A stretch of DNA of 30,000 nt from a virus: positions 1 through 30,000 of the IMG/VR virus record IMGVR_UViG_3300001827_000079; one strand, 5' to 3'. Shown here piece after piece: positions 3,408 through 27,957 of the stretch (the first letter of the stretch is position 1; the number at the start of each line of letters is the position of its first letter). The position numbers were made by a program, and so were the translations under genes. A model generated the notes under the pieces. The model did not search any database, was not told the origin of the DNA, and was given only the letters and a program-made list of their open reading frames with translations.

Positions 3408-4332
3408 AGGAAGCAAATCCGCACCCTCTGAACAAACCGTTGTTCAATCTAATTTGCCGAAGTATGTTCAACCATACTTTGAGCGTCTTTTACAACGTAC
3501 AGAATCAGAGTCAAAGGCCGCATATCAGCCGTATCAGGGGCAAAGATTAGCCACGCCCGGTTCTGATATCACTCAAGCCCAACAGAACATTAGAAATCTT
3601 GCTGGTCAAGGCATAGCCGGGCTACCACAAGCGCAGTCAGCAACACAGGCTGGTTTGCAAAGAGCATTGCAAGGGATGGGTTACCAAAATCAAATGTTTG
3701 GTTCCCAGCAAGCACAGCAGTATATGTCCCCTTACATGCAGAATGTGGTAAATGTTCAAAAACAGCAAGCTATTCAAGATTTCCAACAACAAAACGCCGC
3801 AAGGGCGGCACAAGCAGTTCAGGCAGGGGCATTTGGCGGCTCAAGGCAGGCGGTCGCACAAGGCATGGCTGGTCAAGAATTGTCGCGCCAGCTTGCAGAT
3901 ATACAGGCTACGGGGCAACAACAAGCGTATGAGTCGGCACAAGCGCAGTTTGAAAGAGATAGAGCCGCAAGAGAGTCCGGAGAGCGTCTAGCTCTTGGCG
4001 CGGCTGAGTCCGCTGGAGCGCAAGGCGCACAGTTGGCACAGTTAGGCCAAATGGCTAGAGAAGGTGATGTTCAGGCCGCACAGCTACTAGAGCAAATCGG
4101 CAAGGACATTCAGGCTCAACAGCAGGCTGGACTCGATATTAATTATGAAGATTTTGTACGTCAGCGGGATTACCCCCGTGAACAGTTGCAGTTCTATTCA
4201 TCCATACTTAGAGGTGTCCCAGTACAGCCATCTACGGAAACGACTAAATTTCAATCTTATAATCCTGTTCAGCAGTTACTGGGAACGGGCATATCCGCGT
4301 TAGGTTTATATAAAGGTATTCAAGGAATCTAA
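3400..4332 (+). CDS. Internal virion protein, T7 gp14 position
   Basis: A 310-aa protein, extremely rich in Q and A (about residues 85-250), predicted as long helices or coiled coil. It contains the block Y-M-S-P-Y-M-Q-N-V followed by A-G-A-F-G-G-S-R, which I recognise from marine podovirus proteins next to lytic transglycosylase genes. The N-terminus is basic and serine-rich; the C-terminus has a small hydrophobic segment (LLGTGISALGLYKGI). Position suggests the equivalent of T7 gp14, which forms an outer-membrane pore during ejection. Sequence similarity to T7 itself is not visible, so the assignment rests on order and composition. The SD GGAG lies within the end of the preceding gene. Confidence 0.65.
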   Translation: MGKGSKSAPSEQTVVQSNLPKYVQPYFERLLQRTESESKAAYQPYQGQRLATPGSDITQAQQNIRNLAGQGIAGLPQAQSATQAGLQRALQGMGYQNQMFGSQQAQQYMSPYMQNVVNVQKQQAIQDFQQQNAARAAQAVQAGAFGGSRQAVAQGMAGQELSRQLADIQATGQQQAYESAQAQFERDRAARESGERLALGAAESAGAQGAQLAQLGQMAREGDVQAAQLLEQIGKDIQAQQQAGLDINYEDFVRQRDYPREQLQFYSSILRGVPVQPSTETTKFQSYNPVQQLLGTGISALGLYKGIQGI

Positions 4333-23364: not shown

Positions 23365-23387
23365 GCTGGACGCATTAAACGTCCAGC
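23365..23387 (-). other. Hairpin with a stop codon in its loop
   Basis: GCTGGACG (minus strand, 23387-23380) and CGTCCAGC (23372-23365) form a perfect 8-bp stem. The 7-base loop contains the TAA of the 23375-24193 gene. No U-run follows, so it is not a normal terminator; it may protect the 3' end or hinder terminating ribosomes. Confidence 0.6.
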
Positions 23388-24220: not shown

Positions 24221-24243
24221 GGTAGCGGCACTATGCCGCCACC
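24221..24243 (-). other. Hairpin with a stop codon as its loop
   Basis: On the minus strand GGT-G-GCGGCA, loop TAG, TGCCGC-T-ACC: a 6-bp stem, one mismatch, then 3 more pairs. The three-base loop is exactly the TAG stop codon of the VWA gene. No U-tract follows. Compare the hairpin at 23365. Confidence 0.6.
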
Positions 24244-25382
24244 TCGATGCGTGTTGTTTCCCCAAAAGGCGCATCATTGCAATTGGGGTCTGTTGATACC
24301 CACAGGACTGGGTATTCAGGCGTGTTGTCTGGAAAATCGAATATGCCCATATCGGTAAAGTAAACCATGTTGTCTACAGGCAATTCATTTTCGCGGATAT
24401 AGTTGAAGACTGGCTCAACTCTTGTGCCGCCCCTGCCCTTGCACTCAATCTTGTCTATTACATCGCCTTGTTCGTAGCGTGTGACAGACTGCACCTCAGC
24501 ATCACAAGTGATAACTGTAACAGAGCGAGGCTTGTGGTCTTCAGATACAGCGTTTAGTTCACCCAGAAACTGTGATAGTTCTGTGCTGTTGACTGAGCCA
24601 GATGTATCTACAGCAACGACAATATCGCCTACCCCGATTTTATCTATGCTGGGCATATATACGCCCTGCTGATACCAAACCTTTTTATTAGGCTTGCGGA
24701 AGGTGTAATCGTCCGGCTGGTCTCCACCGATAAACCGATGGAATACATCGCGCCAATCAACTTTTGAACGCCTCATTTTATTTACCAGTTCAGCAATCTT
24801 AGCTGGCAGTTTGCCAACCGACTTAGCACCGTTGGCGGCTAAGAAAATTCGCTGGTCTAGCTTGGCATTAAACTGGTCAAGTTCAGAGCCTTGCAGTTCG
24901 TTGCCGCTATCGTCTTTTGGCGTACCGACATTGCCACCCCATTGCTGGGGCTTGGGGCGCTTGTCAGCGTCCATCTTGGACAGTTCGCGGTAAACCTGAA
25001 GCCAAGTCTTTCCGCTATGCTCAGGGGCGTATAAACCGCCTTCCGGCATATCACCGACATTGGCCTCTATCAGCATTGCATTGATGACATAATCCATGGA
25101 TATGTTCATCAGTTCTGCGTCTGCTGGCTTGCCGTCTATTTCCTTTATCGGGGTGCAATGCTTGAGGAAGATATGGCATATCTCATGCGCGATAACGAAA
25201 GGCGTTTCCTTATCGGTGCATTTGTCCACAAATTCCGCGCCCCATTTAATGCACTGGCCGTCTGTACACATTGTAGGAACATCATCCTTATAGAACGGTG
25301 TACCAAGCACAAGACTACCCCAGAAGGGGTGGTCTAAAACCAGTCTTGTTTTCGCTCTGGCGATTTTTGTTTCTGCGTCCAT
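24231..25382 (-). CDS. Metallopeptidase-VWA protein (DUF2201-type)
   Basis: A 383-aa protein with two domains. Residues about 1-150 hold a zinc-peptidase-like domain with H66-E-I-C-H70 in V-I-A-H-E-I-C-H-I-F-L-K-H. Residues about 250-383 form a von Willebrand A-like domain with the MIDAS core D259-T-S-G-S263 and later V-Y-F-T-D-M-G. This is the architecture of the DUF2201 family (putative metallopeptidase plus VWA-like), which usually pairs with a MoxR-type AAA+ ATPase, as here. The ATPase may remodel a target captured or cut by this partner; the target is unknown. I start at ATG 25382 (MDAETK), with GGAG 9 bases upstream; the longer frame to 25442 runs through a palindrome and a hairpin. Confidence 0.85.
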   Translation of the reverse strand: MDAETKIARAKTRLVLDHPFWGSLVLGTPFYKDDVPTMCTDGQCIKWGAEFVDKCTDKETPFVIAHEICHIFLKHCTPIKEIDGKPADAELMNISMDYVINAMLIEANVGDMPEGGLYAPEHSGKTWLQVYRELSKMDADKRPKPQQWGGNVGTPKDDSGNELQGSELDQFNAKLDQRIFLAANGAKSVGKLPAKIAELVNKMRRSKVDWRDVFHRFIGGDQPDDYTFRKPNKKVWYQQGVYMPSIDKIGVGDIVVAVDTSGSVNSTELSQFLGELNAVSEDHKPRSVTVITCDAEVQSVTRYEQGDVIDKIECKGRGGTRVEPVFNYIRENELPVDNMVYFTDMGIFDFPDNTPEYPVLWVSTDPNCNDAPFGETTRIEVAA

Positions 25383-25415: not shown

Positions 25416-25424
25416 ATTTAGGAA

Positions 25425-25443
25425 GGTGTGCATTATGCACACC
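25425..25443 (-). terminator. Hairpin between AAA+ and VWA genes, weak terminator or attenuator
   Basis: A 19-base palindrome, GGTGTGCAT, one base, ATGCACACC, lies 16 bases after the AAA+ stop codon. On the minus strand it is followed by TTCCTAAATTTT, a poor but T-rich tract. It may partly terminate transcription and lower the amount of VWA relative to ATPase. Confidence 0.5.
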
Positions 25444-25459
25444 CCCTATATGGTTTTGC

Positions 25460-26473
25460 TTACAGCATCAGTTCCTTGCCATGTGTAAGCAGAAACTGCC
25501 GGAAGGCGTCAGTCTGCTTGAGGGCATTGTTTCTGTTATAAGCATCTTTTACAGCAAAGACTGCCATTTCCTTATGCGGTAGGCGTGTCAGGTACTTGAT
25601 GCAATTCCCGATATTTTTATCGTTCATCTTGTACGCGATAGCCGCACAAACCGCATAGCTAACGGCTGGGTCTTCCACAATTTGCGCTGTATCGGGGCTG
25701 GCTATTACAGCGTCAATATCCGGCACTGTATCGTAAACTGCCTTGTACCCGAAAAACTCAGCGCAAGCACCACGTCCAACCTGACCGGAAACAGCTTCCT
25801 GTTGGGAAACTTCGTCCAAATCCCAGCCCATCATGCTGTCTACACGTTCCCATGAGCGAGGCGAAGGACATGAATTTGCATCGCGGTCAAACTTATGAAG
25901 CAGTTCAGGGCGGAAGCGCAGGAAGCCAGTGATAAGAGGTGATGCGCCTACGCTGTTCATGTAAGCTATTGTGTCCTCTAATTCTGCCTCAACTTCCAGA
26001 AACAACAGCCTGTCTTTAAGGTGACTTGGCATATTGTTTGTTCCAGCCCTGTCACTGGTGCGGTTGCCAGCGCAGACGATTGACCAACCGTCCGGCAGAC
26101 GGTGTTGACCTATGCGCCTTTCATTTACCAGTTGCGCGGCAATGTTCTGATTAGCGACAGGTGCTTGCGGCAGTTCATCCAGAAACAGAATGCCTTCACC
26201 GTCCACTGGCATCCAGTCGGGGCGAAGCCGTTTCATGTTATCACCGTCAGCGACAAGCCAGCCAGCCAACTCGCCAGCATCATACTGGGCAAGCGACAGG
26301 ATATTGAGTTCAACCTCACGCTGTTCTGCGATGGTTTGAACAATGGTAGTTTTGCCAAGCCCTGCCCCACCGACAAGGTAAGGGATAGGACGCTGGGCGT
26401 CACGCCCATTGGCAAACTTGATTTGGCTGTCGATTGAAGCCTCGACAATAGCTTTAGCTTGATTGATACGCAT
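25460..26473 (-). CDS. MoxR-type AAA+ ATPase
   Basis: A 337-aa AAA_5/MoxR-like ATPase. Walker A is G35-G-A-G-L-G-K41-T42, Walker B I-L-F-L-D99-E100, sensor 1 N137 in C-A-G-N-R-T, and the arginine finger is probably R155 in H-L-K-D-R-L. A C-terminal helical lid follows from about residue 200, with S-P-R-S-W-E-R. ATPases of this group form rings that work with VWA proteins to insert metals or remodel partners; the VWA gene follows directly. The SD GGGAGA is 7-8 bases upstream of ATG. In phages the pair may act on a host factor or counter defence, but no sequence evidence shows which. Confidence 0.88.
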   Translation of the reverse strand: MRINQAKAIVEASIDSQIKFANGRDAQRPIPYLVGGAGLGKTTIVQTIAEQREVELNILSLAQYDAGELAGWLVADGDNMKRLRPDWMPVDGEGILFLDELPQAPVANQNIAAQLVNERRIGQHRLPDGWSIVCAGNRTSDRAGTNNMPSHLKDRLLFLEVEAELEDTIAYMNSVGASPLITGFLRFRPELLHKFDRDANSCPSPRSWERVDSMMGWDLDEVSQQEAVSGQVGRGACAEFFGYKAVYDTVPDIDAVIASPDTAQIVEDPAVSYAVCAAIAYKMNDKNIGNCIKYLTRLPHKEMAVFAVKDAYNRNNALKQTDAFRQFLLTHGKELML

Positions 26474-26487
26474 TTTTTAATCTCCCT

Positions 26488-26733
26488 TTATGCGTTAACG
26501 TGAGCCGAACAGATAAAGTCTTTACCTGAGCGGATATTAAAAGGCAGTTCGATATTAAACCGTCTATATTGTTTTAGCCTCATGTCATAGACAACACATA
26601 AATGACTAGGCACGTTGGGGTCACTCTTAATAACGCCCCAGACAGGGCGTTCAGTGCCATCCAGCTTTGTAAAAAAGCCAGTGAAAAATCTGCCGTAAAA
26701 CCCCGACAGTAGGTCTTTTCTGTTTTTCTGCAT
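26488..26733 (-). CDS. WYL_2-like SH3-barrel small protein
   Basis: An 81-aa protein, five-stranded by appearance: G-F-F-T-K-L-D-G-T-E-R, H-L-C-V-V-Y-D-M and Q-Y-R-R-F-N-I. The pair F-T-K-x-D-G-T-x-R and V-x-D-x-x-x-x-x-x-R-x-F matches the WYL_2 (DUF2693) family of Sm-like barrels known from T4-type phages. A nucleic-acid or ligand-binding role is typical, but none is proven. I use ATG 26733 because GGGAGA is 8 bases upstream; a longer ATG at 26748 would place the SD inside the gene. It lies directly downstream of hammerhead ribozyme A, so its mRNA may begin with a ribozyme-made 5' end. Confidence 0.6.
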   Translation of the reverse strand: MQKNRKDLLSGFYGRFFTGFFTKLDGTERPVWGVIKSDPNVPSHLCVVYDMRLKQYRRFNIELPFNIRSGKDFICSAHVNA

Positions 26734-26761
26734 GATTAAATCTCCCATGCTGTTGTTGAAA

Positions 26762-26829
26762 GTAGCAGGACGCTACGACTGCCCCGAAGGGCAGTTTCGC
26801 CAGTGTCCTAAGCTGGCTCATCAGGTAGC
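26762..26829 (-). ncRNA. Type I hammerhead ribozyme A
   Basis: On the minus strand all hammerhead core elements occur in order. Stem I 5' strand GCTAC (26829-26825), CTGATGA (26824-26818), stem II GCCAG/CTGGC (26817-26813 and 26803-26799), GAA (26798-26796), stem III ACTGCCC-TTCG-GGGCAGT (26795-26778), cleavage-site C 26777 in GTC, stem I 3' strand GTAGC (26776-26772). Loop II contains AGGAC, complementary to GTCCT at 26771-26767, a likely tertiary contact. Cleavage is predicted after 26777. The ribozyme starts in the stop codon of the 222-aa gene and lies upstream of the WYL_2-like gene. The core has no deviation from the CUGANGA/GAA/NUH consensus. Confidence 0.85.
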
Positions 26830-27497
26830 TATGCGACTGCATCCATCTGACTGGTCATCTCATTGATGGCCTCATTTTCTGCTTGCTGTTTGTCTGCGGC
26901 TTCTTGTGCGGCCTTTTCCATTTCAGCCCGAACCCTCAACTGGTCAGCCAGCAAGTTATTAAACTCTTCAAGTTCTTCATAGCTTAGACCACCAAGCCAT
27001 GCGTCACCCTCGACACGTTCACCCTTATCGTTCTTTTTGGTTGAACGTCTTCCAGCTACCTTTTCGACAAGTAATTGAACCTTGCTCTTTTGGATATCGC
27101 CAGACACTGCCTTGATTAACTTGGCTTCACTGTCGATACCTTGAGCCTCTAAGGTATCGGCAACCAGTTCTGGGGTAGTATTGGCAGAATGTAGGTCAAA
27201 CACGTTCCGCGCACCGACTGCATTTTTTAGCATCTTTTGTGCCATACTTTCGGTAAGCCCCCCGATGTCCATCAAGTCACCTTTAACAGATGCAGAAACA
27301 GATGAGGGAAGGTTTGATTTTTCGGTTAATTGAACACCGCAGATGCCGGATATCAGCATAGAGTAGCTGTTCATCTTGAGCATCTTGGCTTCTGCTTGCG
27401 CTTCTTTTGCATCACCCTTCAGGGAATTGATGCGCTTTTCGTTAGAAGCAATAGCGTTAAGGTTATCGTCTGAAATTGAATAGTGTGCTTTAGGCAT
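26829..27497 (-). CDS. Hypothetical coiled-coil protein between two hammerhead ribozymes
   Basis: A 222-aa helical protein. An N-terminal coiled coil (about 10-45, N-E-K-R-I-N-S-L-K-G-D-A-K-E-A-Q) leads to a compact middle with L-M-D-I-G-G-L-T-E-S-M-A-Q-K-M-L, a K/R-rich patch (V-A-G-R-R-S-T-K-K-N), and a Glu/Ala/Gln-rich C-terminal helix. No family recognised. The ATG has CGGAGA about 11 bases upstream. A hammerhead ribozyme ends about 30 bases before the start and another begins at the stop codon, so self-cleavage would free this coding region as an RNA of about 765 nt (27541 to 26777). Expression may therefore be set separately from the rest of the operon. Confidence 0.65.
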   Translation of the reverse strand: MPKAHYSISDDNLNAIASNEKRINSLKGDAKEAQAEAKMLKMNSYSMLISGICGVQLTEKSNLPSSVSASVKGDLMDIGGLTESMAQKMLKNAVGARNVFDLHSANTTPELVADTLEAQGIDSEAKLIKAVSGDIQKSKVQLLVEKVAGRRSTKKNDKGERVEGDAWLGGLSYEELEEFNNLLADQLRVRAEMEKAAQEAADKQQAENEAINEMTSQMDAVA

Positions 27498-27526: not shown

Positions 27527-27596
27527 GTAGCAGGACGCTACGACACCGCAGGGCGCGGTGTTTCGCCAGTGTCCTAAGCTGGCATCGTCAGGTAGC
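27527..27596 (-). ncRNA. Type I hammerhead ribozyme B
   Basis: Second copy, minus strand. GCTAC (27596-27592), CTGACGA (27591-27585), one extra T, stem II GCCAG/CTGGC (27583-27579 and 27569-27565), GAA (27564-27562), stem III ACACCGC-GCCCT-GCGGTGT (27561-27543), cleavage-site C 27542 in GTC, GTAGC (27541-27537). Stem III differs in sequence from copy A but stays fully paired, and loop II AGGAC again matches GTCCT (27536-27532). The extra base between CTGACGA and stem II may weaken activity. It follows directly after the stop codon of the 97-aa gene. Confidence 0.78.
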
Positions 27597-27890
27597 TTAC
27601 GCGCAGTCGTTGTCAGACAACACAAATTCAACCGCGCCAGTCACTTGGTAGTCAAAGTGAGCAAATCCATCCATAAGCATGGTCATGGTTTGTTCAACCA
27701 ATTCACTGGCGTTGTCATAGATGTAGAAGTCGGCTTCCAGCAACGCCCGAATTGCTTTCGATAATGGGTTGCAAACTGTGTCGGACATATTGGGTTTAGT
27801 CCAGTTCGGGGCGTTTTCAGCGTCAGCATCATTGCAAGCCCAAAAGATAGAAAGTAATTCAGCGATTTTAGCGTGACGATATGCAGTCAT
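27597..27890 (-). CDS. Small hypothetical protein, first gene of the accessory operon
   Basis: A 97-aa helical, acidic protein (A-E-L-L-S-I-F-W-A-C-N-D-A-D, A-L-L-E-A-D-F-Y-I-Y-D-N-A, V-E-Q-T-M-T-M-L-M-D-G). Similar small helical proteins are frequent in phage accessory operons, but no family is recognised. The SD is AGGAG 7 bases upstream of the ATG. The same AGG is the 3' strand of stem III in the candidate ribozyme C, so RNA folding may mask or expose the translation start. Confidence 0.55.
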   Translation of the reverse strand: MTAYRHAKIAELLSIFWACNDADAENAPNWTKPNMSDTVCNPLSKAIRALLEADFYIYDNASELVEQTMTMLMDGFAHFDYQVTGAVEFVLSDNDCA

Positions 27891-27897
27891 GTCAGTC

Positions 27898-27957
27898 TCC
27901 TGTTTCGTTGTTGTTGGTCACTCATTCAGGCTGGGCTACCAATGCCCAGCGACAGGA
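27898..27957 (-). ncRNA. Candidate type III hammerhead ribozyme C
   Basis: On the minus strand: stem III 5' strand TCCTGT (27957-27952), cleavage-site C 27951 in GTC, stem I hairpin GCTGGGC-loop-GCCCAGC (27950-27930), CTGAATGA (27929-27922), a very short stem II (GT and AC at 27921-27920 and 27908-27907), GAA (27906-27904), stem III 3' strand ACAGGA (27903-27898). Loop I TTGGT and loop II ACCAA are complementary, as in natural loop-loop-stabilised hammerheads. The core has one base more than CUGANGA and stem II is minimal, so activity is uncertain. It overlaps the SD of the 97-aa gene. Confidence 0.6.

Follow-up and report, generated by a model that had tools for sequence, protein, structure and literature searches.

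The minus strand of the window, the whole stretch of 30,000 nucleotides of viral DNA analysed here, carries at least three hammerhead ribozymes (copies A, B and C) within one phage operon. Sequence and covariation support copy A as a type I hammerhead on the coding strand of this operon. With a probability of roughly 60 % we take copy A to be a real hammerhead that would cut the operon transcript in cis and, together with copy B and weakly with copy C, would divide it into separate messages, the 3' product being headed by a hairpin. Ribozymes and genes are given in the order of transcription:

27898-27957, minus strand: copy C, a type III hammerhead with a would-be cut between 27951 and 27950, identified through homologues with an intact core
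27597-27890, minus strand: 97-aa gene, between copies C and B
27537-27596, minus strand: copy B, a type I hammerhead with one extra base after A9, predicted cut between 27542 and 27541, 95.7 bits with a held-out covariance model
27527-27541, minus strand: product hairpin of copy B, GTAGC-GTCCT-GCTAC
26829-27497, minus strand: 222-aa gene of no known family, between copies B and A, the constant partner of the hammerhead
26772-26829, minus strand: copy A, a type I hammerhead from stem I to stem I, 83.5 bits with the held-out covariance model
26762-26776, minus strand: post-cut segment of copy A, GTAGC-GTCCT-GCTAC, the 5'-terminal hairpin of the 3' product as predicted from covariation and energies
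26488-26733, minus strand: WYL_2-like 81-aa gene, the first after copy A, a movable cassette
25460-26473, minus strand: AAA (MoxR-like) ATPase gene
24231-25382, minus strand: DUF2201 metallopeptidase/VWA-like gene

The elements of copy A, all on the minus strand, are:

26829-26825: stem I, 5' strand, GCTAC
26824-26818: core, CTGATGA
26817-26813: stem II, 5' strand, GCCAG
26812-26804: loop II, CTTAGGACA
26803-26799: stem II, 3' strand, CTGGC
26798-26796: core, GAA
26795-26789: stem III, 5' strand, ACTGCCC
26788-26785: loop of stem III, TTCG
26784-26778: stem III, 3' strand, GGGCAGT
26777: C17
26776-26772: stem I, 3' strand, GTAGC
26771-26767: GTCCT, complement of AGGAC in loop II (26805-26809)

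Copy A combines CTGATGA, GAA, the A15.1-U16.1 pair (A-T) and C17 with an open stem I, as expected of type I; stems I, II and III have 5, 5 and 7 pairs. The first-pass annotation had described a complete type I hammerhead at 26762-26829 of the transcribed strand, and every element is indeed present in the correct order and place, including the AGGAC/GTCCT complement of loop II, by which GTCCT pairs with the loop as a pseudoknot before the cut. Its cleavage site, after 26777, coincides with the cut that sequence and covariation support here, between 26777 and 26776. The position ahead of the WYL_2-like gene was also correctly given, copy A being located between this gene and the 222-aa gene.

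In a scan of the whole window with a stem-and-core scanner, three comparable fits occurred in 10,483 dinucleotide shuffles versus two in the real sequence. The held-out covariance model, trained on 12 sequences from other contigs and none from the window, recovered copy A with an E-value of 1e-20 and scored the rest of the 30 kb with at most 10 bits. In an alignment of 18 distinct sequences, pseudoknot included, 99.2 % of the cells were paired and 12 of the 22 pairs had changed on both sides. Stems I to III were paired in 100 % of the cells, with changes on both sides in each stem; the pseudoknot AGGAC/GUCCU covaried to GAGAC/GUCUC and GAGGC/GCCU. The core positions were invariant in the aligned copies, except for N7. 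A covariance search against Rfam, which had been suggested as a check together with the initial description, went the other way: copy A had no match at the gathering cut-off, a detection threshold and not a structural definition, and the sole sub-threshold match was to RF00008 (30.7 versus 48.5 bits). That alignment is a wrong type III reading in which an upstream GCAGT is paired with ACTGC. Other intact members of the clade are left unreported by Rfam as well, thus the models have a low sensitivity to the clade of the window and the motif is not absent. The best nested structures by RNAfold were competing folds, more stable than the nested hammerhead form by about 4 kcal/mol in copy A and about 3 kcal/mol in copy B, in a comparison that ignores the pseudoknot.

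Directly behind GTAGC-GTCCT follows a second GCTAC, a repeat of the 5' strand of stem I. Across the 18 aligned rows, GTAGC paired with this downstream copy without exception (100 %), and three of the five pairs had changed on both sides, so the two strands of stem I and the downstream copy change together; slid controls reached 3-63 %. A perfect five-pair product hairpin was present in 42 of 48 unique type I copies, a count in which related sequences enter more than once, versus 3.3 expected with shuffled downstream bases. Since the covariation spans five different stem I sequences, and copies within the single contig of locus L151 differ in stem I, descent alone is hard to credit as an explanation of the pattern. 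The 15-nt hairpin is weak, five pairs with about -4.8 kcal/mol. A hairpin on the cut message is the only use of the third strand that the sequences make evident. No run of T follows, and a reading of the hairpin as terminator was rejected. Hairpins around or just after the stop codon were also observed at gene ends of the window without ribozyme (24225-24245, 23365-23387 and 25422-25446, minus strand); one stop-codon hairpin reads GGTGGCGGCA-TAG-TGCCGCTACC.

According to the proposed mechanism, GUAGC would be bound within stem I and GUCCU would be paired to loop II before the cut, stems I to III and the pseudoknot forming the active ribozyme. Copy A would then cut between the 222-aa gene and the genes behind it, and copies A and B, weakly also C, would break the long message up into several, each with standard ends. 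The upstream fragment should, by the known hammerhead reaction, end in the GC-rich hairpin of stem III with a 2',3'-cyclic phosphate and the downstream fragment should begin with a 5'-hydroxyl group. After the cut, stem I could only form between two molecules, while the 15-nt hairpin forms within one; GUAGC would pair with the downstream GCUAC, and the 3' product should therefore start with the hairpin. The new message would begin with this small hairpin about 40 nt ahead of the start codon. The hairpin would both block re-ligation and shield the 5' end from decay, and by analogy with RiboJ it may stabilise the cut messages. Cleavage in cells and any benefit for the phage we infer.

Hammerheads can ligate as well as cut, and the hairpin competes directly with a re-formation of stem I. 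This would suit an explanation in which the ribozymes only separate genes for differential expression, and the repeat sequesters the product strand for complete cleavage without a role in stability. Hammerheads of types II and III at the same sites, however, lack the strand, yet they leave a hairpin at the new 5' end by topology, as their stem I is closed. A type I ribozyme with the extra strand would thus arrive at an equivalent outcome; this speaks for the hairpin itself and makes the purely separating role unlikely.

The downstream GCTAC might alternatively serve as an off-switch that takes the 3' strand of stem I before the cut, with ribosomes, a protein or the speed of transcription deciding the outcome. 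In nested energy, only 1.3 kcal/mol separates the form with stem I from that with the downstream hairpin, and stem I is overlapped or directly adjoined by the stop codon of the gene upstream; both are in line with such a switch. But the pseudoknot, worth about -5 to -8 kcal/mol as a duplex, holds GUCCU and would tip the balance between stem I and hairpin to the ribozyme, and transcription completes the ribozyme before it reaches the downstream copy. We regard the switch as improbable.

Sixty-four viral loci were fetched by similarity of the ATPase protein and not by the ribozyme, therefore the hammerhead rate in the clade is not a selection effect. In the midpoint-rooted ATPase tree the window belongs to a well-supported group of 29 rows, its relatives being metagenomic contigs; the other group has 34 rows. 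All 27 readable rows of the window's clade had a hammerhead before the 222-aa gene: 15 of type I, 11 of type III and one damaged type I (locus L015, 66.5 bits). In the damaged copy (4146-4221), stem III and the base of stem II contain mismatches, and the core letters are intact. No credible hammerhead was found in the 34 rows of the other clade; a call of type I in L050 was a weak 4-bp fit without support by the covariance model and was rejected. With the midpoint root, a loss in the other clade and a gain in the window's clade are indistinguishable. At the same site L037 has type I and L038 and L039 have type III. The three sit together in the tree on starred branches, about 0.03-0.05 changes per site apart, so this switch of topology at a single site is recent. 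The sequences identify the 222-aa gene, and not the WYL_2-like gene, as the conserved partner of the hammerhead. The 222-aa protein is helical in the predicted structure (pLDDT 77), a fold search returned no significant match, and the gene was not detected among named phages. The WYL_2-like gene (PF10902, E-value 4e-5, under the cut-off of Pfam) is absent from the corresponding place in L003, where the ATPase is identical, and lies elsewhere in L017. Its start is more likely at 26733 than at 26748, because the Shine-Dalgarno sequence GGGAG precedes 26733. Among the ribozymes it was seen at 26488-26733 in the window, 3909-4139 in L017, 4753-4968 in L007 and 7444-7686 in L108.

A second hammerhead between the 222-aa gene and the ATPase gene, the place of copy A, was present in the window, L003, L009, L012, L013, L017, L108, L190 and L199, while in L006, L007, L015, L040 and L112 its place is taken by a short hairpin around the stop codon. 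As copy A is optional in the relatives, it may matter less than copy B. The operon hammerheads were all on the coding strand, mostly with 7-8 nt from the first base of the upstream stop codon to the core and with 37-47 nt from the cut to the next start codon. Contig IMGVR_UViG_3300006916_000359 had hammerheads of all three types, at least six in total, five of them type I. This 24.7-kb contig is represented by both L131 and L151; in it, the stop codon TGA of one upstream gene is part of the catalytic core CUGA, and one upstream reading frame continues through the ribozyme into loop II. A leader class of type III (L003, L005, L017, L040, L059, L060, L066, L112, L176, and L187 before the 222-aa gene) has ACAGG as 3' strand of stem III and AG or a similar sequence behind it, which places the Shine-Dalgarno sequence in or against stem III. 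It would be freed only once the 5' strand departs after the cut. In the other type III copies at the 222-aa site the Shine-Dalgarno sequence lies 15-18 nt past the core, outside the ribozyme. Tentatively, and with less confidence than in the cutting of the operon itself, we suggest that the hammerheads of the clade are interchangeable punctuation, selected for a 5'-hydroxyl message that begins with a hairpin, and that the leader type III hides the Shine-Dalgarno sequence until the cut.

Five matches were obtained in bacterial genomes, of which only L205 (Akkermansiaceae MAG) and L208 (Caulobacter sp. D5) passed the stem test. L207 and L209 failed it, and L206 is cut at the contig end. L205 (position 6210 of DBBL01000025.1, MAG UBA985) has the same hammerhead and the 222-aa gene, and probably represents a phage contig that was binned with the MAG. 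When 289 genomes from the class to which Caulobacter D5 belongs were scanned, a hammerhead turned up in Caulobacter D5 only.

Copy B lies ahead of the 222-aa gene, 765 nt upstream of copy A in the transcript. Both copies have stem I, stem II, loop II and the post-cut region in common; stem III is exchanged on both sides (CACCGC/GCGGTG in B versus CTGCCC/GGGCAG in A) and still fully paired. The extra base of copy B between A9 and stem II occurs in most relatives (36 of 48 unique copies), and the hammerhead of the CChMVd viroid has an extra residue at the same place. Copy C precedes the 97-aa gene, the first of the operon. It was recognised via homologues with intact core in L003, L005, L017, L040 and others; at this site the core is intact (CTGACGA) in L003, whose 222-aa and ATPase genes are nearly identical to those of the window. 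In the window the core reads CTGAATGA, eight bases and thus one too many. Perreault et al. (PMC3088659) report a low hammerhead activity for an insertion after A6, therefore copy C is probably slow or dead in the window. The Shine-Dalgarno sequence AGGAG (27897-27901) overlaps stem III of copy C.

Tandem hammerheads release RNAs of unit length in retrozymes, viroids and other circular RNAs. Copies B and A could excise the 222-aa message, with its ends ligated to a circular mRNA of 765 nt, and in the window the new 5' end from copy B fits the ribozyme body of copy A perfectly in stem I and pseudoknot. Both contacts were, however, cross-compatible in only 2 of 15 neighbouring pairs, and stem I or pseudoknot had diverged in most of them; neighbouring ribozymes fit themselves and seldom one another. 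On these counts circular RNA was rejected as the conserved function. Moreover, the units are protein-coding genes of a DNA phage, unlike those of retrozymes and viroids, and Perreault et al. (PMC3088659) sought circular or spliced products of phage clusters and found none. For the phage of the window itself, circle formation is very unlikely. An element acting at the DNA level, either a mobile insertion that duplicated 5 bp of its target or a site at which gene cassettes recombine, would account for the direct repeat GCTAC on both sides of copy A and for genes such as the WYL_2-like gene shifting between sites next to ribozymes, but is scarcely credible: the repeats covary with the internal strand, which is not expected of a target duplication and refutes its simple form, and the catalytic core, although unpaired, does not vary among the aligned copies, in contrast to the stems, which change by compensatory pairs.

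The proposed cutting of the operon into messages agrees with studies on other systems. Clustered phage hammerheads are already known: PMC3088659 describes types I to III clustered around phage genes with pseudoknots in all types, cleavage of tandem phage hammerheads in vitro and in E. coli, and a proposed processing into mRNAs of gene length. Several hammerheads flanking genes in one phage transcription unit are also found here with copies A, B and C. As in those clusters, types I to III flank single genes or small blocks, with pseudoknots from loop II to the side of stem I; in contrast, the flanked genes are not constant in the clusters described there, whereas one gene keeps its hammerhead here. 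The sections of PMC3088659 consulted here contain no mention of a third covarying strand that forms a product hairpin. Bcep176 and PaP3, phages of that study, were rescanned with stricter rules for core-variant hammerheads, and none were found. The open-licence literature searched contained no account of a partner gene that stays fixed while the ribozyme topology is exchanged, or of the third strand. Among cultured phages, the Roseobacter phage CRP-7 (L210, MK613349) has an ATPase of 42 % identity and a hammerhead in the corresponding genome region (570-633, RF02276, 50.1 bits, over the cut-off of Rfam), in this case of type II. The annotated start of gp02 of CRP-7 (619) is the ATG within the core CTGATGA and is probably misannotated. 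RiboJ raises the transcript level about twofold, and its authors propose the hairpin as the reason (PMC6206723). Both RiboJ and the operon of the window have a self-cleaving hammerhead followed by a hairpin that comes to head the message at its 5' end, upstream of the ribosome binding site; this likeness is at the level of structure only. RiboJ differs in being engineered from a satellite RNA with a separate hairpin of 23 nt, while in the window hairpin and stem I share a strand. The hammerhead with its hairpin may thus be a natural counterpart of the engineered insulator.

A review of 2017 stated the role of hammerheads in prokaryotes and their phages as an open question (PMC6155905). The hammerhead ahead of the 222-aa gene has persisted across deeply diverged relatives, even where the topology of the ribozyme changed. 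The general idea of transcript processing in phages is thereby narrowed to defined mutants whose effect can be measured, and the type I copies with the third strand would constitute a family of natural RiboJ-like parts.
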